From the NCBI GenBank assembly GCA_905250025.1, contig CAJNOJ010000089.1, forward strand, positions 305,924 through 369,923: a stretch of 64,000 nucleotides of DNA, written 5' to 3'. The translations under genes and the position numbers were made by a program. This DNA comes from Adineta ricciae (taxonomy: Eukaryota > Rotifera > Eurotatoria > Adinetida > Adinetidae). The notes beneath the pieces were generated by a model. That model had not been told where the DNA came from and searched no databases. It was given only the letters and a program-made list of their open reading frames with translations. Position 1 is the first letter of the stretch. Each line of letters begins with the position of its first letter. Positions 13,981-64,000 of this stretch are shown here, one piece after another.

Positions 13981-14674
13981 TCATTGATATGCTTGACGTC
14001 GCCATTTCTTCAAAGAAGTTTTGAAAGTTTTCATATAAAGCTCTGAAGGTGCCACAAAGATCAGAAAGACAAGAATTGATGGCATAAACGATATAAAATA
14101 AGCACTTAGATATAACCATAAGTATTCCGATGTGTTCACACAACCAGAAAGTAATGAAATCGCTAAACGTGGGATTGATAAACAAAGTAAGATAACTGGA
14201 CTGATGATCAATTGTTTATGTTCTTTGAATTGTGTACGGATATGTACTTTGACACTTTGATGGTTCTGTGCTTTGGATCGTTGTCGCGCAACTCCAAAAA
14301 TAATGAACAGAGCTGAGAAAAGATTAGCAACAAATGGACCAACAAGGTGAACAAACAGAATAGTTGTATTGTAATTTTGAATAGAACGAGAATAACTGGT
14401 GACACACCAAACATATCGTCTTGTTTTGACCACTTCTGTTTCATTTTTTGAAATCTCGTATGAGAATACATTTCGGTAGATGAATTCGTGTAGAAGAGTA
14501 AACAGAACACAAACTGGTAAAATGCAAATGATCCATCTCGCAGCAGTTCTACTCGTCTGTTTATTGAATTTAACTCCTTTGTAAACATGAAATGCTCGTT
14601 CAATAGCCACACAAGCATTCAGCCAACCATCAAAATAGAGAAGTAGCTTGAGAAAAGGCTCGATTACTTTACAG
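13981..14674 (-). pseudogene. 3' part of the NHL-linked 7TM receptor (TM3 to C-terminus)
   Basis: Encodes ~230 residues from the end of TM2/loop (CKVIEPFLKLL) through TM3 (WLNACVAIERAFHVYKG), TM4 (ARWIICILPVCVLFTLLHE), TM5, TM6 (ISPVILLCLSIPRLAISLL) and TM7 (FISFMPSILVFLIFVAPSELY), ending in KKWRRQAYQ and a stop at 13981-13983. It is nearly identical to 34599-35292. The 5' part is missing at the N at 14675, where the sequence switches to a plus-strand F-box gene, so any frame through the N is chimeric. No ectodomain is present here. Confidence 0.8.
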
Positions 14675-14675
14675 N
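14675..14675. other. Assembly gap (single N) joining 7TM and F-box copies
   Basis: Left: minus-strand 7TM. Right: the middle of an F-box gene matching 12544 onward. The join is unlikely to be natural. Confidence 0.8.
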
Positions 14676-15623
14676 AATTATTCGTATTTATATCATCATA
14701 ATTATCCCAATCAATGGGAAAAATTAATTTCACAACATATGCCACATTTACGCACGTGTAACGTCCATTGGCCAATGATTATCTACAGTGATCTTGACGA
14801 TCTTCGTTCATATACGTTTGTTCATCAATTTAATTCACCGTTTTGGCTCGAACATAACTGGAATATCGCGATTGAAATTGAATTTCAAAGAGCCTTTTAT
14901 CGAATTAGTCCAAAGAAAAACTTTCACAGATTAAATAATGAAAGTTTGAATATTATTACACATCCACATGAAAACCATAATTATCATTGGATAAACTCGA
15001 TGATTAGTGTCGATCAACAAACTACCAACGATTTGTCTTCAAAAGTTTCTTCCTCTGTTAAATTATTAATAATCAATGAACAGAAACTCACGTTGTCTCG
15101 ATCGATAGTCAGCGATCTATTTCCTGTTTTAAATGCGATACATATACGAAGTTTACACCTGATTTGGTCGAATTTATTGATTAGTGATTTTGTCGAACTT
15201 CTAAATCATTTACCAAATCTGAATTCGTTGGCATGGTTTTCTTCACTCAATGTTGTTTCGAGTTCTTTATCTACAAACGACGAGGAAAATCTTCGATTAT
15301 TTTCGATCAGTAACACTATTACACAAGTGTCGTTACAAATCAATTTTGAACAAATACAATTTCTTATTAGACTTTGCCCTCGGATGGAAAAACTTGAAGT
15401 ACATGGCGTAAAAAATGATGATCTCGGAAAACTCCTACGCTTTATTTTAATGGAAACGAGAACAAGTCTTCTTCATCTTCATTTACTGTATCTTACTATC
15501 ATTGACATCAATGATGAAATAGTTCACAATTTACAAACATTGATCGATTCCGAAGATTTACTTTCGGATTATACCATCAAATATCGAGGCAATCATGTTG
15601 CTTTGGAACGGAAAATTCAATGA
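14676..15623 (+). pseudogene. 3' half of F-box/LRR-like gene (copy 2)
   Basis: Begins at the N, in the codons for NYSYLYHHNYPNQWEK, and runs open for ~315 codons to the same stop as the first copy (15621-15623). It is about 97% like 12544-13491, with mainly silent or conservative changes (for example DLDDLRSYTF against DLGDLRSCTF). The F-box half is missing, probably because the contig starts here. Within the segment there is no stop, so the complete allele may be functional elsewhere. Confidence 0.8.
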
Positions 15624-30500: not shown

Positions 30501-31866
30501 CTGCTGATGAAATTAACGGAGTGTGATAATGCAGGAATAACTTCTTTGATATACTTCAAATATGCTTCAAACAACATTGGTTTTAAAGGAATACGATCTA
30601 TTAACGCATCACAACTGTCCAGTGCTAATAGTTGAAGCCACATTGATTCAGGCATTTGTTCCTCTAATCCGATATTTTCGAAAAAGTCGATGATCTTTTT
30701 AACAATATAAAGGCGTGCTGTCTGGATTGATGCATCCAGGAGCAACTCAAGTGGATTTTTGCTTGGTGTTTTATTTATCCTATTGAGTAATTGAATGCAT
30801 ATTAGAATACTTATACCATTATTAAATGAATTCCGTTCGTTTTCTGTCAAATAACTGATTACATCTTTAAGGGACTTTTTAAGTTCACTCATGATAAAAG
30901 TTGTGAAGCACTCTGTGGAGTGATCAAATGCCTCATAATTTTGCTTGTCAATTGGCAAAACTCCGATCATAAGAACGACTTGTTTGATTCCAATAGCTTT
31001 ATTTGTAGTGTTCTTCAAACTATATACAATATAGCTGTTACATTCACTGATGAAACCGGTGCAAAAGTCTTTATCGAAGGAACGGCCGACAATGGCCACT
31101 CTAAACTGCTCCATGAATTCATTGAATATGTCGTATGTCGACTGTTGCAGAAAGAAACATGTCAATAAGCAAAGTTGACTCCAGAAAGGTACTTCTGATC
31201 CTAAAAGTAAAACAGATGATTTTCCTCGACTATCCCCTGTTGTTTTTACTTACCTGGTAGGTGGTATGGGGTGTATCCCTTTTTAAAGTGAACATCGAAT
31301 AGAAATTCACAGGAGCAGCGACGAGGATCGCGTAAGACTCGTTTCATTTCGATATCTTCATGGCTGAAAAGCCTGAGTCGATAGTCGATTATGTGATGCA
31401 ACTTGTTTTTATATAGAACACATAATTCGCCAGCATTGTTGTATACTAAATCAAGCTCGAGATTGAAAATATGTACCTTATCATTGCCCTTTTCCTTGTT
31501 TATGGCGCGTTGTGCAAAATCAAGCTTTACATTTTCGGAGAAGTGGCCTTCAATCCGAATGTTTTCTTTCGACTTTGTATAACGTAGTAAAAACAAGCGC
31601 ATTTTGAAATTCGTCTGCATTGAACTATCTAACTGAAGATTCGCTTCATGCGGAGTGTTCGACGTGTTCATTTTGTCCTTCTGGTTTGTATCAATCACTG
31701 TTGTTGTCGATACTGCGTCACAATAAACATCATCATCGTCACCACCGCTAACAGTATGAACTGTTTGCTTGTCTTCTTCTAAAGGTTTCAATTCCTCATG
31801 TTCATCAATATGAATTATATTGACGTACTCATCGTGTACGTTTACCCTACCTGATGACGAAGTCAT
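17267..31866 (-). CDS. RNF213: RNF213-like giant AAA+ protein with RZ finger (whole gene, six exons)
   Basis: Exons: 31866-31254, 31200-30454, 30396-29881, 29825-29045, 28827-25520, 25461-17267. The introns are 53, 57, 55, ~217 and 58 bp; the fourth junction is my best guess. The join is phase-consistent and gives 4,720 codons, close to animal RNF213 (about 5,200 residues). It has dynein-like tandem AAA units: GETGCGKT (~1985) with LDEFN (~2050), and GKPGCSKTS (~2322) with VIVFDEIGLAELSP (~2394). The latter is a hallmark of RNF213. An RZ zinc finger lies at ~3933-3964. RNF213 proteins are cytosolic ubiquitin ligases acting on bacterial LPS, lipid droplets and viruses. Oddities: a TAA at codon 3305 (21512-21514), and no RING that I can find. 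Either a nonsense allele or two separately translated halves. Confidence 0.85.
21512..21514 (-). other. In-frame TAA inside the RNF213-like gene
   Basis: The only stop in ~8.2 kb of exon 6 before the true end. The frame is the same on both sides (LRIF, stop, ISMQLVEEQ). No credible intron spans it: the nearest acceptor (AAATCAG) has no good donor nearby. Confidence 0.8.
21515..25461 (-). CDS. RNF213-like exon 6, first part: catalytic AAA pair and start of E3 region
   Basis: Runs from CGKTALIQF to LFEILRIF before the TAA at 21512-21514. It contains Walker B LDEFNTT with the sensor-like GACNPQRRKNP, then GKPGCSKTSS and VIVFDEIGLAELSPHNALKVLHSELE with GLSNWRLDASKMNRA. The latter closely follows the RNF213 AAA4 pattern. 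Further units (LMLIGENESVIDYAEQY) lack a P-loop. The C-terminal ~500 residues correspond in position to the start of the E3 module but show no C3HC4 spacing. Confidence 0.85.
25520..28827 (-). CDS. RNF213-like exon 5: stalk and first AAA units
   Basis: Residues ~886-1988. The first ~650 residues are helical and poorly conserved, as expected for the arm/linker region. At ~1563 a GLGKS P-loop-like motif (CTLITSRIAGLGKSTYI) marks a degenerate AAA unit. At ~1909-1927 there is a CPNC...CTNC pair resembling a small zinc ribbon. Then TPDNYIKMLLIYLRVQ leads into IPVLIMGETG at the exon end. The Walker A is split by a 58-bp phase-1 intron (donor GTGAGA, acceptor TTGTAG) and completed as GETGCGKT by the next exon. 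Confidence 0.85.
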
Positions 31867-33069
31867 GTATGGTGATATTGTTTTTACTTAATGATTGTTT
31901 GGAAATATGATTAAATTAAACTATAATCTATAATATAAAATACTTTTGTGCTCATGTTTTTCATGCATGTAGAAGTCGAAGAGACGTTTCAAGTTTTCAA
32001 CTTGAGAGTGTGGGTGTGGGGTGAATGTGGCAAGCCTATAGTCAAATGTGGTTGATGCGGTTAGCATAACAGTGAAATCTGGATTAATGATAATCCAAGT
32101 TTGGAAGTTTAAAACTCGAATCGAATTAACGATTTTTACAATATTCTTAACATAAAAACCATAAAAAGTCCACTTCAGACCTCTACGTACAGAGAATGTG
32201 GGTATTTAGCCAAGTAGACGTGTATGTTGGATATTTCAAATGACTATGAAAAGACAAAAAAGAATGTCGTATGAAGAAAATGTTGAAAGAATCGAAAAGA
32301 TACGTGGAAAGTAGCTCGCTGTTCTCGACATTTTTCCCATTCAACATTTTTTCTTTCGATATTTTTATAACCACTCGATATTTCAAAGATAACAACTTTG
32401 TCAAAAACACCTTAGGTAAACTATGAATCACTAAAAGTAACAAAAGAATAAACGTAGATAGAGATTCATATCTTCTATTGTATATTTTGTGTACATACCG
32501 TAACGCCTATCACTAAATATGAAGTAGTATTGACAATCGAGATGAAACGGATCGATTATCTGCAATTTAGTTTACTTTGAAATTACTAGCAGATCTTTTT
32601 TAAGAATAGATAGTGTTAGTGTTTGAAACAAATGAAGTAGTTCTTAAATAACGTATTTTGCGAGTTCTTTTACGACATAGAATACCTTTGGGCAGGATTC
32701 GGCTTCTTCCTGAGCCGATTCATTTCATCGTAGGTTCCAATAGTACTAACACTGGTTCCAAGCACAACTTGATGAGTTCTATCGGCTCCAATCATAAGAT
32801 TTTCACCCACACTCACACCCTCAAGTTGTGCTTGGAACCAGTATTAGTACTGTTGGAATCTATGGTAAAACAAAATGTGCTTCTTTTCATTGTATAACAG
32901 CTTGTCTGTGTTTGTGCCATTATCAAAAGACAAATGCCTAAATGATAGAAACTGAAGATATCGCAGGGTTCTCAAATGCTATAATATATGAGGTAGATGT
33001 GAGATCTATTATGTCCAAATCCGTTAACAATAAAACTACAGAAATAGTTGATAGTGGTTACAAATAGTC
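31867..33069. other. Intergenic; likely 5' region of the RNF213-like gene
   Basis: AT-rich, no gene supported. It contains the inverted repeat at 32735-32858. An open frame at 32658-32897 is explained by that repeat. Confidence 0.5.
32735..32858. repeat. 36-bp inverted repeat with 52-bp spacer
   Basis: Arms 32735-32770 and 32823-32858 are reverse complements with two mismatches (core GGTTCCAAGCACAACTT). They could form a long hairpin or be a small fold-back element. No flanking target duplication is evident. Confidence 0.75.
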
Positions 33070-34598: not shown

Positions 34599-37033
34599 TC
34601 ATTGATGTGCTTGACGTCGCCATTTCTTCAAAGAAGTTTTGAAAGTTTTCATATAAAGCTCTGAAGGTGCCACAAAGATCACAAAGATAAGAATTGATGG
34701 CATAAACGATATAAAATAAGCACTTAGATATAGCCATAAGTATTCCGATGTGTTCACACAACCGGGAAGTAATGAAATCGCCAAACGTGGGATTGATAAA
34801 CAAAGTAAGATAACTGGACTGATGATCAATTGTTTATGTTCTTTGAATTGTATACGGATATGTACTTTGACACTTTGATTGTTCTGTGCTTTGGATCGTT
34901 GTCGAGCAACTCCAAAAATAATGAACAGAGCTGAGAAAAGATTAGCAACAAATGGACCAACAAGGTGAACAAACAGAATAGTTGTATTGTAATTTTGAAT
35001 AGGACGAGAATAACCGGTGACACACCAAACGTATCGTCTTGTTTTGACCACTTCTGTTTCATTTTTTGAAATCTCGTATGAGAATACATTTCGATAGATG
35101 AATTCGTGTAGAAGAGTAAACAGAACACAAATTGGTAAAATGCAAATGATCCATCTCGCAGCAGTTCTACTCGTCTGTTTATTGAATTTAACTCCTTTGT
35201 AAACATGAAATGCTCGTTCAATAGCCACACAAGCATTCAGCCAACCATCAAAATAGAGAAGTAGCTTGAGAAAAGGCTCGATTACTTTACAGCCAGCTCG
35301 ATGAATCGAAAGATTCGTCGTATCGTTGATCTGAGTCAGAACAACAAACCAAAACTTGATGAAAAACATATTGATGGTCAGAAAAGAAGTAATTGATGAT
35401 GCGAGAAGATAGAATCCACATCCAACCTGTTGTGCATCTTTGTTTTGATATGTAACCTATGAAAGAAAACTGTTGATCAGCCCTCCAAAAAACATAATAG
35501 TTGCCAAAGCAGCACTTAGTTTGATCGAAACGATTTGTTGACTTAGTGTTGAATTCTTCTTGAGTTCTTCATAGAGGATATCATCTAAAGTCAAACCAAT
35601 ACTTTTGTAATGAAGATTACACTGATCACCAATCACACAATATTTGTTAGTTGGATCTAAAAAGCATTTTGAGCAACTGAAGAAAGAAACTAATCAATAT
35701 ATGAATGAACATACTTGAATGTCGAACAGTCACATTGGTATGAGATAATCAAGATATGAATAGAGAAAATTGTCCAGTTGTATATGAATCAAATGTTAAC
35801 TTGTAGATTAAGAATAAATTTCGATTGTTCTTGACTACATGTGCCATCGTGTTCAAACAGTTGATTTAGTGATGGTTTCAATGGATCAAAATAATCTTGA
35901 TAGATGTAACCAAATGTATGAATTGGACTATGAACCCAAATGAGATATGTTTCGTTTGTATTGACATGAATTTCGAATGTTTCATAGTAACATTTTGGTT
36001 GTTGGCAATCCCGATAATACATTCGACTATTTTGTGATAATTCGGATGAATAATTAAACAAAATATTGAGTGGAGTAACTATTCAATGATGAAAAACAAT
36101 AGAAGAGGACCGTATTTGTAAAATGAATGTGTTTACTCACTCAAACGACTGAGAGTGACATTTTTTAAACCGAATATTTTTATTTCGATGTTGCCAGTAA
36201 TCATGGGTTGATTTGTTGTGACAACCAATATGTATTTACCGTCGTTATAAAGAGGAAGTTCAAACTTGAATTGACCATCGAATCCTCCATCGTCATCTGT
36301 GATGGGAAGATTTTCATTTGGATTCAATGGATTAAAATTGTTCTCATAAATATAACCATATGTATCAATCCCAACACTGCTTCGTACTGAATAGTAAAGA
36401 CTTTCGGGCTCTTCAATCTGAAACGCTCCGTAATAATACTTGAATTTGTAACATGCTCGACAATATGTGTGACTAGTTTTGGTTAATTCGATTGACTTTG
36501 TCCATAGATTCACTAATAGTTTATCTATTAAACACGTTTACATATAGTCAAAATATCCGCTTGTTAAACAATCTATTGAAACTTACCACAAGAGTTCTTT
36601 GAATATTCAAACTTTTCAATTCGATCGTTTCCTGAATCGACAATAAACAGATTTCCAAAACCATCGAAAGCTAAATTCGATGGAAATAATAACAGAGTAG
36701 ATTTAATACTGATTCCATCACATCCGATAACACAGCGAACATCAGTGGGTCCTGCTAGAATAATCCGATAATTATTAGAATCAACAATAAATAAGTATCG
36801 TTGAGCATCAAATGTAATTGCTGTTGGACACGAAAGTGAATACGGATGCTGCAATGATTTGCTGCCAATTTCTGTTTTTCCATCTACTTGACCTAATGAA
36901 AATCGTTGAATTCGGTCGTTGCCGCAATCTGCAACAAATGTATCGAAGTTTGTATCAACAAAAATCCCATGAGGACGATGAAGTTGATGAGATCCTGATC
37001 CTGCAGTATCCCTTCCAGCCACAGTAGTCAAGG
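34599..37033 (-). pseudogene. NHL / beta-module / 7TM receptor, copy B (5' cut at N, two lesions)
   Basis: From 5' (right) to 3': part of an NHL propeller exon (37033-36587, blades with FVADCGNDRIQRFSLG, FIVDSNNYRIIL and FIVDSGNDRIEKF), beta module 1 (~36524-36147), beta module 2 (~36077-35770), then the 7TM exon from about 35700. The juxtamembrane part has KCFLDPTNKYC.IGDQC and IGLTLDDIL; the gene ends at the stop at 34599-34601. It is almost identical to copy A. Lesions: module 2 lacks 26 bp between two 'aatg' direct repeats (near 35789), shifting the frame, and 35457-35459 is TAG where copy A has TGG (between TM1 and TM2). It cannot encode a full receptor. The start is lost at the N. Confidence 0.8.
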
Positions 37034-37034
37034 N
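37034..37034. other. Assembly gap (single N) fusing copies A and B
   Basis: Left is the NHL exon of copy B; right is the 7TM exon of copy A after TM3. A frame runs through by chance and is a chimera. Confidence 0.85.
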
Positions 37035-40000
37035 AAATGCTCGTTCAATAGCCACACAAGCAATCAGCCAACCATCAAAATAGAGAAGTAGCTTGAGAAA
37101 AGGCTCGATTACTTTACAACCAGCTCGATGAATCGAAAGATTTGTTGTATCATCGATCTGAGTCAGAACAACGAACCAAAACTTGATGAAAAACATACTG
37201 ATGGTCAGAAAAGAAGTAATTGATGATGCGAGAAGATAGAATCCACATCCAACCTGTTGTGCATCTTTGTTTTGATATGTAACCCATGAAAGAAAACTGT
37301 TGATCAGCCCTCCAAAAAACATAATAGTTGCCAAAGCAGCACTTAGTTTGATCGAAACGATTTGTTGACTTAGTGTTGAATTCTTCTTGAGTTCTTCATA
37401 GAGAATATCATCTAAAGTCAAACCAATACTTTTGTAATGAAGATTACACTGATCACCAATCACACTATATTTGTTAGTTGGATCTAAAAAGCATTTTGAG
37501 TAACTGAAGAAAGAAACTAATCAATATATGAATGAACATACTTGAATGTCGAACAGTCACATTGGTATGAGATAATCCAGATATGAACAGAGAAAATTGT
37601 CCAGTTGTATATGAATCAAATGTTGTTACAACTAAGATATATCGAATGTTAACTTGTAAATTAAGAATAAATTTCAATTGTTCTTGATTACATGTGCCAT
37701 CGTGTTCAAACAGTTGATTTAGTGATGGTTTCAATGGATCAAAATAATCTTGATAGATGTAACCAAATGTATGAATTGGACTATGAACCCAAATGAGATA
37801 TGTTCCGTTTGTATTGACATGAATTTCGAATGTTTCATAGTAACATTTTGGTTGTTGGCAATCCCGATAATACATTGGACTATTTTGTGATAATTCGGAT
37901 GAATAATTAAATAAAATATTGAGTGGAGTAACTATTCAATGATGAAAAACAAAAGAAGAGGACCGTATTTGTAAAATGAATGTGTTTACTCACTCAGACG
38001 ACTGAGAGTGACATTTTTTAAACCGAATATTTTTATTTCGATGTTGCCAGTAATCATGGGATGATTTGTTGTGATAACCAATATGTATTTATCGTCGTTA
38101 TAAAGAGGAAGTTCAAACTTGAATTGACCATCGGATCCTCCATTGTCATCTGCGATGAGAAGATTTTCATTTGGATTAAGTGGATTGAAATTGTTTTCGT
38201 AAATATAACCATATGTATCAATATCAGCACTACTCCATATTGAATAATAAAGACTTTCGTGCACTTGAATCTGAAAAGCTTCATAATAATACTTGAATTT
38301 GTAACATTCTCGACAAAAAGTGTGACTGGTTCGGGTGAATTCGATTGACTTTGTCCATAGATTTACTGATGCAACGTCTATTGGACATGTTTACATATAG
38401 TCAAAATACCCGCTTGTTAAGCAATTTATTGAAACTTACCACAAGAGTTCTTCGAATATTCAAACTTTTCAATTCGATCGTTTCCTGAATCGACAATAAA
38501 CAGATTTCCAAAACTATCAAAAGCTAAATTCGATGGAAATAATAACAGAGTAGATTTAATACTGATTCCATCACATCCGATAACACAGCGAACATCAGTG
38601 GGTCCTGCTAGAATAATCCGATGATTATTTGAATCAACAATAAATAAGTATCGTTGAGCATCAAATGTAATTGCTGTTGGGCACGAAAGTGAATACGGAT
38701 GTTGCAATGATTTGCTGCCAATTTCTGTTTTTCCATCTACTCGACCTAATGAAAATCGTTGAACACGGTCGTTGCCGCAATCTGCAACAAATGTATCGAA
38801 GTTTGTATCAACAAAAATCCCATGAGGACGATGAAGTTGATGAGATTCTGATCCTGCGGTATCCATTCCAGCCACAGTAGTCAAGGCCAGTTGTGGGTCA
38901 TGAAGATTTCCTTTAATAACTCGATGATGTGTGGACATGGAACAATACAAATGACTACCTATGTCGATAAACAAACCAACACACGAAGAAAAAACATCTA
39001 TCGCATCAACAAAGACGTTGGTCTCAAAAACCCACTGTTTCACTTGACGTTTTGATGCAGTGTCAATGAATATGTCACCGTTGGACATAACAAACAGAGA
39101 AGATGAATGAGAGAAATTAGCAGGAATTGTTATTGGTTGAATAGTGTCACTGTGATGCCAAACTAAAATTTCTTTATTTTCTCGATTAATCGAATAAATG
39201 GAATTTTTGTCATTGATAAAGATGGCCGACGGATTCGAACCAAGTCTCCGTTGATCGGCAAAAGTCGTTCCATTTCGTTTCCAAACTGATTTTGAACAAA
39301 GTCTTGGTTGATTGAATGAAAACTCTACGAGAGAAAAAATTTCATTTCTATACTTTCTTTTGATTCTTAACACCACATAAATACAAAACTCTTATGAAAC
39401 TCACTACAAGAGTTGCTTAAGTAAAATTTCTGAACTCCATTCTTCAAAAATGCACTGACAAACATGTTGCCATGTACATCGAAAGCCATAGTAGATGGTC
39501 TGCTCAATTGACCACTCTGTTCATAGCATCCAACTAAGCATCGAAAACCATGGGGTCCTTCTCCAACAATACGATCATTTCCGGAATCAATAATAAATAG
39601 ATATTTCTTGGCATCCAATAAGACTCCAGTGGGGCTCGTAAGCAAAACAGTAGGCTTGTATGATTCTTTACCGGCAACTGTAATGGCCTTGTTTTTTCCC
39701 AAAGAAAACAATTGGATTCGATCGTTGTTTGAATCTGCCACGAACAAATCGAAGTTAACATCAACAAAAATTCCATAGGGATTATTAAGTTCATCAGCGC
39801 CAGATCCTTTAGTACCATTTCCCGCAACAAGTATCGGTTTCATCGAAGAATTGTTCAAGTTTCTTTTCATCACTTGATGATTCGCGCTCATCGAGCAATA
39901 CAAACTGTCATTCGTATGCACAAACAGACCAGTACATGACGACTGTACATCCATGACGACAACAAAATCTCCTGTCTTTGATATCCATCTCTTTACTGCT

Positions 40001-41271
40001 TTATTCTGATCACCATCATCAACAAAAATATCACCATCCAATGTTACGAATAGAGACATTGACATTGAAAAGCTACCTGAAATGTTGTAGGCGGATGTGA
40101 GACTATTTTCGTCAGTCCACACTAAAATCTGATTGCCCTTTTGATTAATAAGATAGATAGTGTTGTTTGTATCGATAAAAATAGGTGTAGGAAATATGCT
40201 GGGGGTGAATTGATCAGTAAGAGTGGTTTTCTTCTGACTCCAAGTTGCCTTTGGACACAATTGTGGTTGATTAAATGGAACAGCTACGAATATAAGAAAT
40301 AAAATCAAGAAAAACATTCGTTAACAAATCCTTTCAGCACCGATTTATTTGACTTTTTATTTACTCACCAGACGTGTTGATCAGCTCGAATTTCTGGATA
40401 CGGTGGTTCTGCTGATCAACAATAAACATATTGCCATATACATCGAAATTCATAGCAACCGGCACAGTCAACTGATTCGGTTGATCACCTTGCTCATAGC
40501 ATCCAGCCAAACATCGAAAGCCATAGGATCCTTCTCCAACGATACGATTATTTCCAGCCTGCACCAGCAAGTGTGATGGCATTTTTTTCTCCGAATACAA
40601 ATGACTGAATTCTAGCATTATTCGAGTCTGCTACCAATAAATCCAAGTTGTTATCAACAAAAATTCCATAGGGATAGCTGAGTTCACTAGCATGAGATCC
40701 TTCAACGCCGTTTCCAGCAACGAGGGTCGGTTTCATCGAAGGACTCTTCAAGTTTGTTTTCACCACTCGATGATTAGTGAATATGGAACAATACAAGTTG
40801 TCATTAATATCAACAAAGAGACCAAAACATTGCGACTCAACATTCATAACAATCTCAAAATCTTCTGTTTGTGGTCTCCACTTCTTTACTACACCATGCC
40901 TAACGTCATCATCAATATAAACATCACCATTCGATGTTACAAATATGGAATAAGCATCCGAAAAGTTGCCTGAAATGTTGTATGTTGGTGTGAGACTATT
41001 CTCGTCATTCCAAATCAAAACCTTCTTTTTCTCTTGATTAAAAACATAGATCGTATTGTTTGTGGTTATAAAAATAGATGTGGGATTTTGACCAACGATA
41101 GATCGATTAGCAAAAGTGTTTCCACTCCGATTCCAAGTTGCTGTTGAAGACAAGTTCGGTTGATTCAACGAAAGAGCTAAAATTTCTTCTTAAAAAACGA
41201 ATAACGAGTATTTAAATTCACTTACCCAACGATTTCTCATTGTAAATAAGAAGGAAAAGGATTAGAATAGA
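37035..41271 (-). CDS. NHL / beta-module / 7TM receptor, copy A (3' cut at N)
   Basis: Exons read from the splice signals: a hydrophobic segment ending 41226 (WNFSILILFLLIYNEKSL); NHL exons 41176-40369, 40283-39405 and 39324-38440; beta modules 38377-37994 and 37931-37542; and a 7TM exon from ~37517 with KCFLDPTNKYS.IGDQC, IGLTLDDIL and TM1-TM3, cut at the N. All joins up to module 2 are phase 1, so every exon is symmetric. The NHL exons each hold ~6 blades with F(V/I)AD/DS.N.RIQ motifs and should form a six-bladed propeller. The modules share YYYE/YYET, IYE/YQ..FDPLNP and YILVVTT. Predicted to be a cell-surface receptor. The first NHL exon has lost ~26 residues with a frameshift near 40556. 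No ATG precedes the hydrophobic segment in frame; an ACG sits where a start could be. Confidence 0.75.
39405..40283 (-). CDS. NHL propeller exon 2 of copy A
   Basis: Intact phase 1-1 exon. Blades include PTPIFIDTNNTIYLINQ, GLFVHTNDSLYCSMS, GIFVDVNFDLFVADSNNDRIQLF, GVLLDAKKYLFIIDSGNDRI and FDVHGNMFVSAF. The apparent leader (MFFLILFLIFVAV) just upstream is encoded by the intron's pyrimidine tract and is not a signal peptide. NHL propellers bind proteins or RNA; here an extracellular ligand is likely. Confidence 0.75.
40369..41176 (-). pseudogene. NHL propeller exon 1 of copy A, internally deleted
   Basis: Opens as ALSLNQPNLSSTATWN and carries four good blades (YVFNQEKKKVLIW, GLFVDINDNLYCS, GIFVDNNLDLLVADSNNARI). 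After AITLAG about 80 bp of the next blade is missing and the frame changes, resuming at NNRIVGEG with one more blade to a phase-1 donor at 40369. Because the exon is symmetric, skipping it would restore a continuous frame from the hydrophobic exon to NHL exon 2. Confidence 0.7.
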
Positions 41272-41568
41272 AAAATTCCACGTTCTTCTTCTTCCGTATG
41301 AGTCTGTTCCAAGTTGCGATTTGCTTTTAAACACATGACATGGCACAATCGAAGGATTAGTTTGATCACGTTCTTCGTCATTAAATTTAACTTGCAAATA
41401 TTTATTCCTGTTTTAGATGAAATTAGTTTTCATTCAACTAAAAGTCACGATCAGTTGTATAGTGTCATCGGAGATCATTAACGTCAATATGAAAGAGAAA
41501 CAAGTGATGGCGAAAGTGAAGAATACTGACATCCCTGTTTTTATTATTTAAAGGAAATCGCATAAGAA

Positions 41569-42441
41569 TTAAGACCATTTAACAATATTTTTTCCACAAA
41601 AATCTTGTACTGCATTCGAAACATACGGACCAGCACCGATTTCATAGATGCACATTACTGGACAATGGTCCGACACCGAGTATCCTCCAGTACAAAAGAT
41701 ATTTGTTAGAGAATTAGCTAAGATAGGACGTGCATATTTATTTTGCATGATCCAATCTAATGTTGTGCCAACTTGAATATCTTCTTTTGGTTCAGCTGGT
41801 CGTTGAGGATGTGTAATTGGTGTTGGTAATCGTAATTCAGCAAAACAATCGACATAACCAGCTTCACGTAGAATACGTCGTGGATGATAATTTTCATTTA
41901 AATCACCCATAAATAAAACAGCTAGATAAGGATTATTGAATCGAGTAGTTAATGCTTCTAAAGCACTAACTGTACGACGTGTTTGTTGCTTACGCAGATT
42001 AATATCTGTTTTGCGTTCTTCTTCATGTCCTTCCCAAGTATAATGGGCAGTCGAAACAAGTATTTCTTTTCTATTTTGTTGATTGGTTACATTTGATGTC
42101 GATGATTTGATGAACAATCGTGCCCAAAATAAACGTCTCAATGGTTCCATTATACCAATATCAACCATTCCGTAGTCTAACATGGTGAACATATTCGAAT
42201 TCCAATAGATATTACCTTCATTCTGCCATCCAGCAAATTCATCTTGAATGAAAGCATGTGTTGGTAAAGCTTCGACAATGGTATCGTGTAGTAATGGATG
42301 CAGTTCTTGTATGCAGAGAATATCGGGTGTGAATGCTGTGAGACATTCAATAATAGGTAAACGACGCTGTGGCCAATTGATTGGAAAACCTTCGGTTTTA
42401 CACATATTGAACGTCATTACTGATACTCGTGAAACGTCCAT
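41569..42441 (-). CDS. Endonuclease/exonuclease/phosphatase (EEP) family protein
   Basis: About 290 residues from MDVSRVSVMTFNMCK. The start is chosen at MDVSRV because conservation with the copy at 48737-49289 begins around there; the upstream frame extends ten codons. EEP signatures in order: TFNM, CIQEL (metal-binding Glu), STAHY, GDLNEN (catalytic Asp/Asn), TLDWIM and SDHCPV (catalytic His). The family cleaves phosphodiester bonds with Mg2+ and includes DNA repair nucleases, deadenylases and sphingomyelinases. No signal peptide or extra domain is seen, so it is probably intracellular. The exact substrate cannot be told. It ends at 41569 with KNIVKWS. It lies between two receptor genes on the same strand and is part of a duplicated block. 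Confidence 0.85.
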   Translation of the reverse strand: MDVSRVSVMTFNMCKTEGFPINWPQRRLPIIECLTAFTPDILCIQELHPLLHDTIVEALPTHAFIQDEFAGWQNEGNIYWNSNMFTMLDYGMVDIGIMEPLRRLFWARLFIKSSTSNVTNQQNRKEILVSTAHYTWEGHEEERKTDINLRKQQTRRTVSALEALTTRFNNPYLAVLFMGDLNENYHPRRILREAGYVDCFAELRLPTPITHPQRPAEPKEDIQVGTTLDWIMQNKYARPILANSLTNIFCTGGYSVSDHCPVMCIYEIGAGPYVSNAVQDFCGKNIVKWS

Positions 42442-43798
42442 GATCGAGCACTTATGAATGACGTTGACCAAATTTTACCTTGAGAAATCTTTTGTGAATT
42501 GAATAGTTAAATAGAACACAAACGATAAAAGGACGATAGAGATAAACGAAACATGTTGTTAGTTGATGTTAGATAACAGAAACGACTGAAATTTAGTGTA
42601 GTGATTCTTATTCCGTTATTTTATCAACTATAAATTGAAAAAATGTTTGATAAACATCGGAATGGTACGACGTGATTGATCATTTGAGAGAACTATTTAT
42701 TGGATGTTTTTATATTAGAAAAAGAACAAATATGTTGAATATTGAGTAGCGATAGAGCTTTTCACTCGTCAAGTGTTGAGTGTCATCGATACTAGCAATA
42801 GGAATTACGTAAATAATGTTAATCAAGGCTCAGCTCCATCGTAGTCGTTCATCATCCATGGAAATGTCAGCCATTCCGAATTCAGCGAAAATGGAAACAC
42901 TGCGGAATTCAACAGCTGAAGAAATATTATGTATTTGATTTATAATTACAAGACAACGGAAGATACACATTTCACAAAACACAACAAAAAATAAGAAGTC
43001 AATAAATGTAAGAAACAGTCATGGTAGATACTCAAAAAACTGTGCGAACTGAGAAGAAAGGGAAATTTTAGTTAGTTGTCCGGCCATTTTTTACGATATT
43101 TCTTCCATAAAACCGATTGTTGAGATGTTCATTTATGATAAATAACACGAATGAACCATGTCGTGTTGAGGAATACGATTAAGAACAGTAGTATAATACC
43201 ATGCAAATAAACTTCTCAGTACGCTAAAATACGACTTACATGATAACAACCATCTTCCTCGCAGACATTCAATGTATACTTCGAATTAGGTTGACATGAA
43301 TGAAAAAAAAACATCACTATGATATAGATCATATAAGCAAGAATGGAATATAAAGGTGCATAATCAATGAATTACCAAATGGAACAGAACGCAGGTGCAA
43401 TGAAAGGAGTAAGTGACCAAAAAAGGAGAGAATTGGAAGTAGCGCGTACGCTAAAGTTTTTAGCCTTTGTTTTTTCGGCACTTCTAGCGATTGATTGCAT
43501 ATCAGATGCGAAATATCCTGTTTATTTCTTGTTTTCTATCTTATCTGTGTAATTATCATTATATTTCTAAAAGGAAATGTGTTTGACCGTACTCATTAAC
43601 TCGTACTATAGTTTTGTCCTCATTAGGAAAAGTGAACACTCCGGCGTTGAAACTGATTATGAGGCGAACTTGCTCTGCGATTTCATACTTTGTAAAAGTT
43701 TGGAAAATCTGTAAAGATCTTTCCAAATAAAGTCGTTTGCAGCATGAATAGATATTTATTGTTTCATTAATGAATAAGCGAAAATAATGAAAGATAGG
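42442..43798. other. Spacer in the duplicated block, possible small gene
   Basis: Matches 49290-50481 with indels. A minus-strand stretch near 43245-43330 encodes FFFHSCQPNSKYTLNV then CEEDGCYH up to a good donor (gtaagtcg); a possible acceptor (TTCTTCAG) lies near 42924. In the second copy the same exon is preceded by an ATG and a hydrophobic run. A small secreted or membrane peptide is possible, but unproven. Confidence 0.3.
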
Positions 43799-46700
43799 TC
43801 AATAAACAAAAGATGTGTCGGTGATTTGTTTCTTGATGGCTCGTCTTCTACAAATTCGAGAAAACGATTGTTTAAAGGCTTTTCGATAGCTCTTCGACGG
43901 ACAGATAAATACCACAAAGATAAGTATTGATGGTGTAAACGAGATAAAATAACCAGTGAGATATAACCATAAACGATTAGAAATATTTGTGCATCCCGAT
44001 AACAAAGAAATGATCAGCCGTGGAATCGATAGAACAAGCAGCATTGCAGGACAGTAGAGAAGTTGTTTATTTTCTCCGAGTTGTTCTCGAAAATGTTGTC
44101 CATTTTGAGTTTCTGCCCGTCGACGAACACTTCTTATAATAATGAATAATATCGAAGAAAAAAGATTTATAATGAATGGACCAAGATGATGAATGAATTG
44201 AATAGCTGTATTGTACTTTTGAATTGGTTGTGAATAAGTAGTTATACACCAGGAATGCCTATATAGCACAATTTCTTCTATGTCTAGTATGTGTTCCTTT
44301 ATTACATAGTCTAATGTCTGACGGAGTAGTGGTTCATGAACAAGAGTGCTCATGATCACAATCGGTAAGATAAAGACGATCCATCGAGCAAAACATTTAC
44401 TTTTCTCCTTATCAAAACTCACTCCTTTATAAGCGTTCACTGCACGTTCAATTGCCGCACAAGCTTGGAACCAAACATCGCAATAGAAAAATAATTTGAG
44501 AAGAGTCTCCATCGACTTACAACCACCTTGAAGAACTGACAAACGAATGGAGATGCTCATTTGTGTAACAATAACAAACCAGAATTTAATCGTAAACATC
44601 GTAATCGTCAGAAGAGAAGCAATCGATGATACCAAAAGGTACACACCACATCCAACTTGCCGAAAACTGTCATCTCGGAAAGTTAAAATCGAACAAAAAC
44701 TGTTGATGACACCCGCGACAAACATAATCACTGTCAAAGCACCAGTGATTTCGATAACAACTGGTTGATCATAGATTGTTCTATTTTGATTCACTTCTAG
44801 TCGTAAAATATCATCGAGAGTGAAACCAATATCTTTGACTAGAACGTTACACGGACCACCAACATAACAATAAGTCGAACTGTCAACTAAACAGATTGTT
44901 GAAAGACAATCTCAATACTGATTATCTATGAGATAAAGTCAATCGACTTACCGAAGCGTTGAAGAATAACATTGGCCGGATTGCACACTTAATTGAAAAT
45001 GGCATTGTTACCAGTGGCTGCAACGTTGTCACAAGTAATATATATATTTTATCAGATCGAAGGTAGAATTGATATGTTACTTCACTGTCAAAACGATTAT
45101 TGGTTTTGAAGGAAAAAACAAAATTCTTATGGGGATTCAATGGATCGAAATGATTTTCATAGATATAGATGTCTATAGCAGTAATTCTATCAATTGAAAA
45201 TCTATAATATGTATCGGCGAGTACAGTTAATTGTATAGTTTCGTAATAATAAAAGGTATGTGTACATCCTTTACTATATGTTTGACTATCTCTCGTCAAT
45301 GCCGATGAATAGTTCGAGTAAGTAGCTAATGAAAAATCGAATGAGAAAGACTTAAATGTTTATATAGTTTATGTTTTTCTTCTACTCACATGTCAGTTCA
45401 AAATTGGTATTGTGTTTGGCAAATATTTTGCATTTGAAGCCCACTGTTGAATCTCCTACGCATGTTGTAACAACCATTATGTATCGAATGTCCTTCAGAA
45501 GTTCAACAGTTATCGGAGGCAAATCATTAATGTCACAAATACTTCTACGCATGAGTAGATTTTCAGATCGGTTGAGTACATTGAAGTCATGTTTATAGAG
45601 AGAGAACGATATACCCATGCTCATGTTTTCGACGGTAAGCCAAATAGAATAAGAATCACTTTTAATCACATTCAATTGCACTGGTTTATAATAGTAGTTC
45701 GGGTTCCTTCCACCGGAATTAGTGGAAGAATAATTTTCATCATTTTGCGCCACTACAGTCGTGTATGTTGATTCAATGCCTTGTTTGATATCTATTTAAC
45801 AGGAAAATGTCGTCTATGGTCTTCTTGAAGAATGTATATTACTTATACGTTCAAGACGAGCTGCATTTGAACCGAAGGTAGTAACTGAGAATGGCCCTGT
45901 GACATGTTGATTGTATGTCGTTACAACCAAAATGTATTTCGTATTGACAAGAAGTTCAAGTGTAAATTTGAATTGATCCTTATTGCAATATTTGCCGTAC
46001 CATGCAATCAGATTGTTCGTAGGGTTGAATGGATCAAATTGATCTTTGTATACATGACCGTAAAGGTCAATACTACTGTTGCCGGTGAGTATGTAGAAGT
46101 CATTTTTACTGACAATGACTGCAATGGCTTCGTAGTAGTAATTTGAACGATTGAATCTAACACGTGAATACATGTCATGATTTTCTGTTAGAATAGATGA
46201 ATAAGTTGATTGAGTGTCTGATGAAACATTTTCTAAATAAAAGAAAATCGAATCCTTACGAGATAATAACTATGAACAATACTCACTACAAGAATCTTTC
46301 TGTAAATGAAATTTTTGTACTCGATCACTGCCTGAATCGTAAACGAACATATTTCCATGTACATCAAAACTAAATTTGGTTGGCATATCCAACTGATGAG
46401 CTTGTTTACCATCCCTATTGCATCCGACTAGACATCGAAAACCGTTTGGTCCTGATGCAACAATACGATGATTTCCACTATCCGATATAAAAATATATTT
46501 GTCAGCGTCTAAGGCAATTGAGTGTGGACGAATTAGTTCAACCGTGATATCCATTGAACTTTGTCCTGCTACCGTTTTTCCGCTTTTTTCACCGAAAACA
46601 AAAAGTTGCACTCGATGATTTTCTGAATCTGCCACATATAAATCGAAATTTGTATCAACAAATATTCCTATAGGATAAAACAATTCATTCAGACTTGAAC

Positions 46701-47268
46701 CTTCTTTACCTGTGCTAGCTACAGGCACCATCTCCATATCATCATCTAAATATTTTCTGACAACAACATGTTCGTAAGATGATGAACAGTATAAATAATT
46801 ATTAACATCGATAAAAAGACTAAAACATCCTGTTGCAACCTTCATAAAATGAGCAGAACTATTTGTACTTGACATCCATTTCATGATTTCGCCATCAAAA
46901 AAACTGATATAAATTTCCCCAACGTTCGATACGAACATAGACGTAAGTTCGCACTCTTTCTCTTCACAAATGGTCATTGAGTAAGTCTTGTATCCGCGCC
47001 AAACAAAAATCTGAGGTACCCTATAAGCACTAATGTAAATGGATGTTTTCATTATCAATAAATATATCGACACTGTTCGTTTCAAGCACATTCGCGTTGA
47101 TAAAGGTCATTGCATCTCGATCCCATTTGTCTGTTGGACAGAAATTTGGTTGATTCAACGAAAGTCCTATACAATGAAAACTTTACATTTAGTGATCAAT
47201 ACTGTTGAATAGAATTAATTACCTAATATTCCATCGATGAGAATCAGAAAAAAAACAACAAGCGCCAT
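43799..47268 (-). CDS. NHL / three beta-modules / 7TM receptor, gene 2
   Basis: Exon 1 (47268-47223) is a signal peptide: MALVVFFLILIDGILG. The NHL exon is 47166-46287 (FFDGEIMKWM, GIFVDTNFDLYVADSENHRVQLF, FISDSGNHRI, FDVHGNMFVYDSGSDRVQKF). Three beta modules follow (about 46232-45830, 45793-45392 and 45330-44952), each with YYYE/YYKP, Y...FDPLNP or similar, and YILVVTT. The 7TM exon is ~44912-43799: juxtamembrane YCYVGGPCNV and IGFTLDDIL, TM3 WFQACAAIERAVNAYKG, TM4 ARWIVFILPIVIMSTLVHE, TM7 FISFTPSILIFVVFICPS. Introns are phase 1. One base too many near 47046 shifts the NHL frame between FIDNEN and IYISAYR, so this allele may be broken or the base an error. Otherwise complete. Confidence 0.78.
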
Positions 47269-48736: not shown

Positions 48737-49289
48737 AATTTTCATTTAAATCACCCATAAATAAAACAGCTAGATAAGGATTATTGAATCGAGTAATCAA
48801 TTCATCTAGAGCACTAACTGTACGACGTGTTTGTTGCTTACGCAGATTAATATCTGTTTTGCGTTCTTCTTCATGTCCTTCCCAAGTATAATGGGCAGTC
48901 GAAACAAGTATTTCCTTTCTATTTTGTTGATTGGTTTCATTTGATGTCGATGATTTGATGGATAATCGTGCCCAAAACAAGCGTCTCAATGGTTCCATTA
49001 TACCAATATCGACCATTCCGTAGTCTAACATGGTGAACATATTCGAATTCCAATAGATATTACCTTCATTCTGCCATCCAGCAAACTCATCTTGAATGAA
49101 AGCATGTGTTGGTAAAGCTTCGACAATGGTATCATGTAGTAATGGATGCAGTTCTTGTATGCAGAGAATATCGGGTGTGAATGCTGTGAGACATTCAATA
49201 ATAGGTAAACGACGCTGTGGCCAATTGATTGGAAAACCTTCAGTTTTACACATATTGAACGTCATTACTGATACTCGTGAAACGTCCAT
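48737..49289 (-). pseudogene. EEP family gene, N-terminal part (copy 2)
   Basis: About 184 codons nearly identical to the 41569-42441 gene, from MDVSRV through QEL and STAHY to GDLNEN, where the N cuts it. Differences are few (LSIKSSTSNET for LFIKSSTSNVT, DELITRF for EALTTRF). The C-terminal half with the catalytic Asp and SDH is missing, probably through the assembly break. An open frame continuing left of the N is unrelated. Confidence 0.8.
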
Positions 49290-50481: not shown

Positions 50482-52054
50482 TCAATAAGCAAAAGATGTG
50501 CAGGTGATTTGTTCCCTGGTGGCTCGCCTTCCACGAATTCGAGAAAACGATTCTTTAAAGGCTTCTCGATAGCTCTTCGACGGACAGATAAATACCACAA
50601 AGATAAGTATTGATGGTGTAAACGAGATAAAATAACCAGTGAGATATAACCATGGGCGATTGGAAATATCTGTGCATCCCGACAACAAAGAAATGATCAG
50701 GCGTGGAATCGATAGAACAAACAGCACTACAGGACTATAGAGAAGTTGTTTATTTTCTCCGAGTTGTTCTCGAAGGTGTTCTCTATTTTGAGTTTCTGCC
50801 CGTCGACGAACACTTCTTATAATAATGAATAATATCGAAGAAAAAAGATTTATAATAAATGGACCAAGATGATGAATGAATTGAATAGCTGTATTGTACT
50901 TTTGAATTGGTTGTGAATAAGTAGTTATACACCATGAATACCTATATAGCCCAATTTCTTCTATGCCTAGTGTGTGTTCGTTTATTACATATACGAATAT
51001 CTGACGGAGTAGTGGTTCATGAACAAGAGTGCTCATGATCACAATCGGTAAGATAAAGACGATCCATCGAGCAAAATATTTACTTTTCTCCTTATTAAAA
51101 CTCACTCCTTTATAAGCGCTCACTGCATGTTCAACTGCCGCACAAGCTTGAAACCAAACATCGCAATAGAAAAATAATTTGAGAAGAGTCTCCATTGACT
51201 TACAACCACTTTGAAGAACTGACAAACGAATGGAGATATTGATTTGTGTAACGATAACAAACCAGAATTTAATCGTAAACATCGTAATCGTCAGAAGAGA
51301 AGAAATCGATGATACCAAAAGGTACACACCACATCCAACTTGCCGAAAACTGTCATCTCGGAAAGTTAAAATCGAACAAAAGTTGTTGATAACACCCGCG
51401 ACAAACATAATCACTGTCAAAGCACCAGCGATTTTGATAACAACTGATTGATCATGGATTGTTCTATTTTGCTTTATTTCTGGTCGTAAAATGTCATCGA
51501 GAGTTAAACCAATATCTTTGACTAGAACGTTACACGGCCCACCAACATAACAATAAGTCGAACTGTCAACTAAACAGATCGTTGAAAGACAATCTCACTA
51601 CTGATTATCTATGAGATAAAGTCAAGCGACTTACCGAAGCGTTGAAGAATAACATTGGTCGGATTGTACACTTTAATTGAAAATGCCGTTGTTACCAGTG
51701 GCTTTGACGTTGTCACAAGTAATATATATAAAATATCAGATCGAAGGTAGAATTGATATGTTATTTTACTGTCAAAAAGATCATTGGTTTTGACGGGAAA
51801 AACAAAATTCTTATAGGGATTCAATGGATCGAAATGATTTTCATAGATATAGATGTCTATAGGAGTAATTCTTGAGGGTGAAATTTGACCATCCGACAAA
51901 CTGATTGCTCGATTGTAGAGGCCTCTTCTACTACCTTGGTCGAGAATGTCGAAGATGCGTGCAATGTCAAATTCTTGTTCCTGATTATTGTCTAACATGA
52001 ATACTTGCAAGAAATCATCCCATGCCAATTTCGGAACTGATGAAGAAATATTTG
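50482..52054 (-). CDS. 7TM receptor gene 3, ectodomain remodelled/partial
   Basis: The 7TM exon (~51597-50482) is close to that of gene 2: YCYVGGPCNV, IGLTLDDIL, TM1 from ALTVIMFVAGVI, TM3 WFQACAAVEHAVSAYKG (the R of AIER is H here), TM7 FISFTPSILIFVVFICPS; open to the stop. The exon before it (52054-51635) carries only the second half of a beta module (IDIYIYENHFDPLNPY, YILLVTT). In front of that are ~60 residues unlike any module (SSVPKLAWDDFLQVF, FDIARIFDILDQGSRR) that follow a phase-1 acceptor. No NHL exon or signal peptide is found; a hexamer array lies ~300 bp upstream. It may be a rearranged, 5'-truncated copy. Confidence 0.65.
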
Positions 52055-52076: not shown

Positions 52077-52346
52077 AAGATTACATAAGTAATATAATTT
52101 TAAGAATAAATTGTCCTAACCTCGTTGGTACTCTTTTTGGGTTATTCTACGAGAATGAATAGTTGTGCAGGAAAGGAGAAGTTTGCTATTTATTTAATAC
52201 AATTCAACCGAGAGAATTGACATGAATGGACTTACTTGGTCTTACGAATTTCCGATAACGTTTCATACCACGAGTATCTAATATTTTTAACAAGCAAACA
52301 AGGCAACTAACTACGATATGTAATGAAAATGATATACTCATAATCA
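52077..52346. other. No gene seen
   Basis: AT-rich DNA between receptor gene 3 and the hexamer array. Probably the breakpoint zone where the ectodomain was lost. Confidence 0.45.
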
Positions 52347-52771: not shown

Positions 52772-55700
52772 TCAAAATCGAAGTCGAATGAAAAATAATT
52801 TTTTAATAAATAATATCAGAGCCGCTCGGTAAGCATCTGATGGTAAAATAAAAGCAACAAATATTGACATCGATGGAATAAATCCAATTAAATAAGTAAA
52901 TAAACTTAAATGAAGACGTTTATCAAGTTTAGTACAAATAGATTTAAATATTGATATAATTCGAGGAAGAGAAAAACATCCTAAAATGATTCCACTTAAT
53001 AATATATGTTTATGTTTCATTATTTGCTTTCTTAGTGTTTTTGAACGAAGTTTTTCTTGACTTTTTTTATCCATATCTGTTATGATTGTTGAATTTAATT
53101 GTTGTTTAAAACGAAATGTTATTATTATTATTATTATAGAACTTATTAGATTAATAACAGTAGGTAAAAGAAATAAAAGTACATTTGATATAACATAAAA
53201 CCTAAATAATATTGCTTGTTGTTCATAATTAAGAGTAAGAATACACCAAGTACGTTTATCTTCTTGATCAATTATCATTCGACGATAAATTAATTCGGGT
53301 AGACATATTAAACTAATTAAAGTAATCAGAATAAAAATGATCCATTTGGAAAGTTTTTTACTTATAACGCGAGAAAAACGTGCTTTTTTCTTGACCGCCC
53401 ATGTTCGTTCAATAGCAACACATGTATTTAACCATTCATTATTTGTTGAAGAAAACTTTAAAAAATATTCGATAAATGAACAACTAAGATTGTTTTGTCG
53501 ATGATATAATAATAAGAAAAGTTTAATCATTAGAAAAACAAATGTAAAAAGAGCAAAACATGATGAAGTTAATAAATAAAGGCCAGAACCAGTTCCTTGT
53601 GTGGTTTTATCTAGAAATGTTCCAATCGACAATAGATTCAAAATAATTCCAATCATAATCACTATAAGCATTATTATAAAGCTTATTTGAATAAGTTTTG
53701 TTTGTTGGAATAGACTTGTAATATTTGGTTGAATGTGTGAAGCAAGAATTGAATCTAATGAAATTAAATACGTATTACTAGAAAATTGACAAGAAGATCC
53801 ATAATAACATTTTCGACAAATACATATTGAACTAGTTGGACATAAATAATGATTTTCAACACAAATTCCTCTATTACTACATTTATTCCACGGACATCCA
53901 TTTTCGTTTAAATATAAATTAAAACAATTGAGATGATTTGTTTTATCACATAAACAAATCATTTGTTCATCATAAAAACATGTTAATTGATTTTGAAAAT
54001 TTTTCTTTAAACATATTGTTTGATAATTTTTTATACGACGCATATACATTTGTTTACGAATTGTTTTATTAAATAATTCATTTATTGATTGACATCGATT
54101 GGATTGATTAGCTGTACTTATAATTTCTTTTGATGTTTCATTGAGTTCTTGTTTTAAACTTAATAGATAATAATTAACATGATCAAGATCTTCGAACAGT
54201 CTAAGAAAAACAATTAATCCATGAAATTGATTTTCATCCATATCATATTCAAAATAAAATGTAGAATTAAATAAATTTTCTTCAAGTCGATTAAATGAAG
54301 TTAAATGTAGAGCGTCACGATATTTTTGAGCTATAATTAAATGAACAAATGCAATTGATGATGACAATACAATCGAATCTTTGGAAAAAAAAACATTAAT
54401 TCGAAATTTTATTCTTTCACATCGATCACCAAACCAATTTAAATCACAAATACATTGATATTTATTCGAACGTTCATCATTTTGAATACATTCTCCATGA
54501 TTATTACAACTATTTTTATCACATGGATCATATGGGATAAGACACCGAGAACCAATGTGAGTTATTGGACATACACATATATCTCGATCTAAATTTCTAT
54601 CATATCCAAGATAAACTGAATTATTTGAACATAAATTTGATTTATTCTTTGAGATTGTTAATGATACAGACTGAGATATGATATCATTAGCAGATAAAAA
54701 TAATCGTTTGACTATTTGTTGTACAGGTAAGAAATTAAATGGAACAGAATATATCCATGATGTTTTATATTCAAGTGTTAAACCTGTAAATAGATGAATT
54801 TCAATTGAATCATTCAATGATAATGATAAAGAATCTTCAACTGGATAAGCTAAATGTGTGATATATTTAGGTAAACAATATTCAAATGGAATATAAAGAA
54901 ATTCTTCATGTGATAATATAGATTTTGTTTCATTTTGACGTACTAATAAAATAACAAATTTTAATGTTGGAGATAAATGATTAAATGGACCTATTATTTG
55001 TACTTGAAATATTAATGTTAAGCGCTTTCGTTGATATTGACAACGATCTCCATAGTAATGTGTTGGACAAAGGCAAATAAATCCCGATGGACTTTCAGAA
55101 GAATAAACGTATAATCCACGATTACAATAAAAAGCTAGAAAATTATTTGATGCCGATCTCAATCGATTAGGATATTCTTCCATATTTATTAAAGAAATAC
55201 TTTCACTAAATATTTCATCAATTAATTCACAAAAAAGTTCATCTTCTCCATCAGTACAATGAAAATTCATTCCATCACATCGAGAATTAAGTAAAGGATA
55301 ATCGACAATTTTCCCGTTTCGACATCGAAGTGTAGATGAATCACACCAAGGTTCTTGTCCATTATTAAACCATATACAAGCTATTGTTTCATCATCATTC
55401 AAAGGACAATCTTGATGACAATCGCATACTTGAAATGGTGAAATACATTGATCAGAATTTTTACATCGATATCGACGAACTTTTTCATACGGATATTTTA
55501 TACGACAGAAAGATCGTTCATCAACTGAACCTACACAATTTAGAATTCCATCATTAACTTTTCGTTCAGATAAACATATTGGAAAACCAGTGTTTGCATC
55601 CAAGCAAAAATGTGTTGTTTTATTACAATGACGTGAAGCTAAATTTGGTTTCCCACATCCTAATTCATCTTCTCCATTTGGACAATTCCAAATATTATTG

Positions 55701-63962: not shown

Positions 63963-64000
63963 CTCATTTGAGTATCGGGCGGATACACCAAATCCACTCA

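Follow-up and report, generated by a model that had tools for sequence, protein, structure and literature searches.

Background

G protein-coupled receptors (GPCRs) with big modular ectodomains are already known: the LGR receptors, the relaxin receptors and GRL101 are class A (rhodopsin-like) GPCRs that carry large ectodomains with modules such as leucine-rich repeats (LRR) and LDLa, and the adhesion GPCR latrophilin carries an olfactomedin propeller together with a GAIN domain. Teneurin, a surface protein with an extracellular propeller, has one membrane helix. Here we examine a 64,000-nucleotide stretch of the Adineta ricciae genome (the window; positions 305924-369923 of contig CAJNOJ010000089.1, in an assembly of 130.46 Mb and 1033 contigs). 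A preliminary description had read the minus strand at 34.6-41.3 kb, which we call copy A, as one gene and not a row of small NHL genes, encoding a seven-transmembrane (7TM) receptor with three NHL exons and two copies of a beta-structured module. We consider it likely that copy A and its neighbours are decayed members of a large class A-like 7TM family, with an ectodomain of exchangeable phase-1 exons and a putative function in surface recognition.

Like the LGR receptors, the relaxin receptors and GRL101, the predicted protein would combine a class A-like 7TM with a modular ectodomain, and 20 of 23 receptor exons matched Pfam 7tm_1 (E up to 0.1, best 3.4e-14); unlike them, its ectodomain is composed of NHL and calpain-III-like modules, and the class A residues of the transmembrane segments (TM) TM2, TM6 and TM7 are missing. 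With teneurin (treated with latrophilin in PMC6978801) it would share an extracellular propeller on a surface protein, and the receptor NHL exons match the teneurin NHL weakly. In contrast to latrophilin and other adhesion GPCRs, no GAIN or GPS was present among the Pfam matches of the receptor exons examined, namely the 7TM exons, the window exons and the frame 52772-55927. Both 7-transmembrane receptors and NHL proteins are among the expanded families of Adineta vaga (PMC3846280), where, in the available portion of that report, they stand side by side and not as one protein. We found no description of the NHL and 7TM combination in the literature searched, a search that left much literature and the protein databases outside it, and the architecture may already be annotated somewhere. 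PMC4967905 cautions that an apparently novel combination of domains may be an error of gene prediction.

Exon layout of copy A

Read in gene order on the minus strand, copy A runs from a hydrophobic exon through three NHL exons and two beta modules to a 7TM exon ("right version" distinguishes these exons from a second version described below):

41226..41283, minus: signal (hydrophobic) exon; phase-1 donor GTAAGT; ACG where the relative L033 has ATG
40369..41176, minus: NHL exon 1; Pfam NHL 27.5 bits; deletion of about 80 bp near 40560-40585, reading frame not intact
39405..40283, minus: NHL exon 2; Pfam NHL 17.2 bits, below the cut-off of 20
38440..39324, minus: NHL exon 3; Pfam NHL 32.2 bits, cut-off 20
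37994..38377, minus: beta module 1, right version
37542..37931, minus: beta module 2, right version
37035..37483, minus: 7TM exon, right version; truncated by the N at 37034

When the splice sites are read in the sequence, the joins are readable as GT-AG in phase 1 throughout, the usual intron phase for extracellular modules. An automatic join search agreed on phase 1 for NHL1-NHL2, NHL3-beta 1 and beta 1-beta 2, gave a tie of phase 1 and phase 2 for beta 2-7TM, and missed the phase-1 NHL2-NHL3 join, its best candidate there being in phase 0. The multi-exon plan of the preliminary description is present, and its count of two beta modules was correct.

The gene plan recurs across the genome

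A search of the genome with the 7TM exon of copy B, a neighbouring copy in the window, returned 119 matches, of which 111 were used; the 8 left out were second pieces of exons already counted. Short frames (under 600 amino acids) accounted for 59 of these matches, some of them fragments, and long frames for 52. At least 150 beta matches were listed and 124 NHL matches were scored, so that the counts are lower bounds, and because the local profiles were built from window exons, matches within the window hold by construction. Neighbours were counted within 1.5 kb and among the matches listed.

At least 39 of the 59 short-frame 7TM matches had a beta match on their 5' side and on the same strand, whereas a beta match on the 3' side, or on the other strand, accompanied none of the 59. 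Seen from the modules, 110 of the 150 beta matches listed had a neighbour, and for every one of these 110 the closest neighbour shared their strand; 40 stood alone. Nineteen of the best 20 7TM loci of the 119 matches (L009-L028, including two window loci) carried at least one upstream same-strand beta module, and 15 carried three within the 1.5-kb flank. Two tandem genes on contig C459 have the order NHL-NHL-NHL-beta-beta-7TM, which is the plan of copy A.

A phase-1 GT[AG]AG donor ends 19 of 21 NHL exons and 60 of 68 beta exons. In phases 0 and 2 such a donor ends 0 and 0 of the NHL exons and 2 and 3 of the beta exons; this count excludes repeated loci, as well as exons with a match that ends before the profile does. 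When spliced, L035 gave three NHL exons and two beta modules ahead of a 7TM in 1523 amino acids, and L029 and L032 gave one NHL exon and three beta modules in 1080 and 1089 amino acids; all three run from ATG to stop without an internal stop, and each has a candidate signal-peptide exon. A beta module lies immediately before the 7TM exon in both L029 and L035. Spliced L033 reads signal-NHL-NHL-7TM, with 972 amino acids.

On these sequence grounds the pattern of copy A is beyond chance, because it recurs genome-wide with one-sided strand and order. The intact paralogues, together with the strand and order counts, argue for one gene over a row of small NHL genes, and the receptor type therefore looks real despite the broken state of copy A, given intact members elsewhere in the genome. 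As an observation apart, one 7TM match of this receptor family (C141:32769-33704) lies inside a 3574-amino-acid open frame.

NHL propellers and the beta module

The Pfam cut-off is 20 bits for NHL (PF01436) and 30.5 bits for 7tm_1 (PF00001). Three of the window NHL exons exceed the NHL cut-off (32.2, 27.5 and 50.5 bits), as do NHL exons of L029, L032 and L060 and three exons of L035; the window exon that falls short (17.2 bits), NHL exon 2 of copy A, shares 45% identity with NHL exon 3 (E 6.9e-75). For the NHL of L029 the closest solved relatives were Thin and TRIM71. A 7TM receptor with extracellular NHL propellers is supported as a prediction.

Sequence searches gave no assignment for the beta module, and we placed it by structure prediction. 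Against PDB sequences there were 0 matches up to E 10. The PPC profile (PF04151) matched nothing in the genome up to E 1 and was absent from the best 25 of the 27 Pfam families matching 49 beta modules. No beta module passed the cut-off for calpain domain III (PF01067), which 7 of the 49 matched weakly (best E 0.031); the genome's 11 PF01067 matches are all on contigs without a listed beta match. The predicted structure of copy B beta module 1 had calpain domain III as its closest fold and PPC-type folds next (Tk-SP 10.9, ColG 9.8 and a collagenase PPC 9.5, over 89-105 residues), with unrelated jelly rolls at 9.3-9.4 in the same list. The module is accordingly predicted to be a calpain-domain-III-like sandwich. 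Of the two folds suggested earlier, PPC was a fair guess, ranking next if barely above the jelly rolls, and CUB was not among the fold matches listed (50 in one comparison, plus a second list), although lists this short exclude nothing. Unlike calpain domain III and the bacterial PPC domains, the module has no Pfam match over cut-off, and it is repeated on a receptor, where it would be extracellular. Arrays of six modules in L072 (C257) and four in L073 (C345) lack an adjoining 7TM of the receptor family, so the module is probably a general one in this animal; no same-strand NHL match lay in the stretch examined near either array.

The 7TM core

In the 23 7TM exons aligned, C131 and C222, which would form the cysteine pair between the beginning of TM3 and the loop preceding TM5, were invariant, as were prolines in TM5, TM6 and TM7 (23/23). 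The end of TM3 has E in 22/23 and R in 22/23, with a third position that is not Y in the rows aligned, and the W of TM4 was found in 22/23. Ordinary class A receptors have an Asp in TM2, CWxP in TM6 and NPxxY in TM7. Here a W two positions before the TM6 proline and an N before the TM7 proline were each present in 0 of 23 exons, and the rows aligned showed no Asp in the TM2 stretch; because of these absences we file the 7TM, as judged from its residues, as class A-like but divergent and not as an ordinary class A member, and coupling of the receptor may be atypical.

Related sequences in the same genome are those of a long-frame EGF-type 7TM family (frame 52772-55927 in the window, L058 and L059), whose 7TM is 33% identical to that of copy B and which shares the two cysteines before TM1 and the TM motifs. 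It differs in having long single frames with EGF-like matches and no beta module near any of the 52 long-frame matches, among the matches listed. The EGF-like matches are over the cut-off in the window gene and under it in L058 and L059, these being the three of the 52 that were examined for EGF. LDLa repeats are present in the neighbouring frame 59451-60290, which we infer to be part of the same gene as 52772-55927. Within the window, 7tm_1 scored 50.5 bits in frame 52772-55927 (over 30.5) and 26.4 bits in the left 7TM exon of copy A (under), and the copy B exon had no match.

An assembly join and coding faults in copy A

The window contains ten single Ns, one of which lies within copy A. Segment 35208-37033 matches 37035-38886 over 1852 columns at 94.2%, and both ends abut N 37034, which looks like the place where overlapping contig ends, allelic or paralogous, were joined without merging. 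Since the match runs up to the N from either direction, the complete 7TM exon at 34599-35656 must be assigned to a left version, distinct from that of the NHL exons at 38440-41176; the 3' half of the copy A gene is thus present a second time, unmerged, at 34599-37033. For the same reason, a real tandem of two genes at 34599-41271 was rejected.

37034..37034, no strand: single N where two overlapping contig ends meet; flanked by the two sides of the 1852-column match
36573..37033, minus: left version, end of NHL exon; truncated by N
36141..36524, minus: left version, beta module 1
35715..36082, minus: left version, beta module 2; 26-bp deletion
34599..35656, minus: left version, 7TM exon; stop codon in TM1; Pfam 7tm_1 E 5.6e-6, 26.4 bits, below the cut-off of 30.5

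Four more Ns, at 3938, 5313, 10635 and 12443, have 221-bp dovetails of the same kind (98.6-100% identity); these unmerged contig overlaps produce false tandem duplications, also within the open frames 3654-4721 and 12151-13491.

Copy A finds no support as a working gene, being broken and in part an assembly join. In the right version, ACG stands at 41283-41281, where L033 has ATG (MWNFS), and NHL exon 1 follows profile positions 12-217 and then 242-306 in another, overlapping frame. In the left version, beta module 2 has its deletion, and the nonsense codon in TM1 sits where the right version has W. Between the versions, beta module 1 (36136-36537 against 37989-38390) differs at 45 of 402 bases, and the neighbouring stretches of exons at 8-13 of 399-459 bases; such a patch suggests gene conversion.

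Other receptor copies in the window

Copies B and C and further 7TM sequences, likewise on the minus strand, were as follows:

47223..47268, minus: copy B signal exon; begins with ATG
46287..47166, minus: copy B NHL exon; Pfam NHL 50.5 bits; reading frame disrupted near 47046
45843..46232, minus: copy B beta module 1; used for structure prediction
45390..45791, minus: copy B beta module 2
44952..45325, minus: copy B beta module 3; lacks one base near its end compared with copy C (read by eye)
43799..44886, minus: copy B 7TM exon; open frame; no 7tm_1 match of its own
51635..52013, minus: copy C beta module; 5' part unrecognisable
50482..51569, minus: copy C 7TM exon; open frame
13987..14679, minus: further 7TM exon fragment; truncated by N 14675
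52799..53827, minus: 7TM of a related kind, within the long EGF-type frame 52772-55927

Damage is present in each of copies A, B and C; it may reflect genuine decay or, in part, faults of assembly. The window search with local profiles found no NHL exon upstream of the copy C 7TM. A duplicated segment (41889-45188 and 48737-51872, in three pieces at 91.5%, 74.7% and 92.7%) carries the 3' half of the copy B receptor to copy C; its second block starts directly after N 48736, and it also holds what we take to be an endonuclease/phosphatase-like gene.

Elsewhere in the window, a very large gene at 17267-31887 is presumably an RNF213-like AAA+ protein, judging by a zinc-finger-like stretch, and frame 9684-10322 we assume to be ADP-ribosyltransferase-like; broken stretches similar to that frame, by eye, lie at 33.7-34.2 kb. 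Degenerate CACCCA/CACCCT-type arrays at 63714-63963 and 52346-52429, one of them at the contig end, resemble the bdelloid telomere hexamer TGTGGG.

Selection and descent

For the tandem pair L035/L036, the ratios of nonsynonymous to synonymous substitution (Ka/Ks) from NHL exon 1 to the 7TM were 0.24, 0.25, 0.19, 0.45, 0.13 and 0.28 (the 7TM in part); on these ratios each exon looks held as coding, under purifying selection. Between L029 and L032, Ka was 0.44 for NHL, 0.27, 0.50 and 0.51 for beta modules 1-3, and 0.24 for the 7TM, from which most, but not all, of the ectodomain evolves faster than the 7TM, beta module 1 being the exception. In a midpoint-rooted tree of the 7TM, 29 short-frame exons form one group inside 14 long-frame exons. 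With a support of 0.012 for this group, the tree does not settle the direction of 7TM evolution; an inner group of 24 short-frame exons has support 1.0.

Alternative explanations

A number of findings weigh against the one-gene model and what we read into it. Seven loci were assembled; among them L030 yielded no chain in phase 1, L036 overran its locus, and L037 required a forced join (the best join there being in phase 0) that leaves the gene doubtful. Among the matches listed, 20 of the 59 short-frame 7TM matches have no beta match within 1.5 kb; for C380:74606 the nearest listed one is 1.7 kb upstream, L033 is without any beta module, and L027 has none in its flank. The predicted 7TM model is poor (predicted local distance difference test, pLDDT, 52.6), and structure matches of such models can be meaningless. 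The gene model is a prediction from genomic DNA, and ligand, coupling and function are inferred. Finally, an in-frame stop lies at +5 nucleotides behind the donor in 33 of 68 beta exons and 5 of 21 NHL exons. This last finding would suit separate genes, in which secreted NHL and beta-module proteins are encoded beside 7TM genes and never spliced to them, as would the arrays in L072 and L073 that lack a 7TM of this family. We nevertheless regard separate genes as highly improbable: the +5 stop lies within the GT[AG]AGTAA donor itself, strand and order are one-sided, the phase-1 7TM acceptor fits the upstream phase-1 donor wherever a beta-7TM join was sought, and a single frame spans every join in L029, L032 and L035.

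Two further explanations accept the gene but read it differently. That copy A works, its breaks being errors of sequencing or assembly, we think unlikely; N 37034 does mark an imperfect assembly, and the exons still give Ka/Ks of 0.11-0.50 against L035, but several separate faults would have to be explained away (the ACG start, the loss of about 80 bp in NHL exon 1, and the left version's 26-bp deletion and nonsense codon), the cluster neighbours B and C are damaged too, and no near-identical intact copy of NHL exon 3 was found, since its best relative outside the window by E-value is 58% identical. Rather doubtful, too, is the idea that these are adhesion or scavenger molecules whose 7TM is an anchor without G-protein signalling. 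The missing TM6 W, TM7 N and TM2 Asp would fit an anchor, as would the L029/L032 ectodomain Ka of 0.44, 0.50 and 0.51 against 0.24 for the 7TM, though beta module 1 is at 0.27; yet the TM3 E and R, the TM4 W and the three prolines are more than an anchor needs, and the 7TM appears to be under purifying selection.

A proposed receptor family and its significance

The explanation we prefer, a large 7TM family with an ectodomain of exchangeable exons, would work as follows. The receptor would be encoded in the order signal peptide, one to three NHL exons, zero to several beta sandwiches, a stub and the 7TM; the stub is short, has two fixed cysteines and resembles what is left of an EGF domain. 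The sequences themselves show the order of the exons, their joining in phase 1, members free of stops, and purifying selection on every exon of one tandem pair. The NHL propeller, sometimes three in a row, would bind an outside partner, the beta sandwiches would serve as a stalk or a second binding surface, and the class A-like core would pass the signal inward, most likely in surface recognition of microbes, food or self. As for descent, we tentatively entertain the possibility of a lineage-specific repertoire in which an EGF-type class A-like receptor had its ectodomain reduced to an EGF stub and gained NHL and calpain-III-like modules by phase-1 exon shuffling, with changes in copy and module number, gene conversion and decay in clusters such as the present one maintaining diversity for microbe or self recognition.

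A module without Pfam coverage has here received a predicted fold, and the analysis further cautions that false tandem copies arise from single-N joins in this assembly. If our reading is true, a class A-like core that bears propellers and calpain-III-like sandwiches, exists in dozens of copies and differs among them in module number would constitute an exon-shuffled receptor repertoire, and this repertoire would be a candidate recognition system for study.

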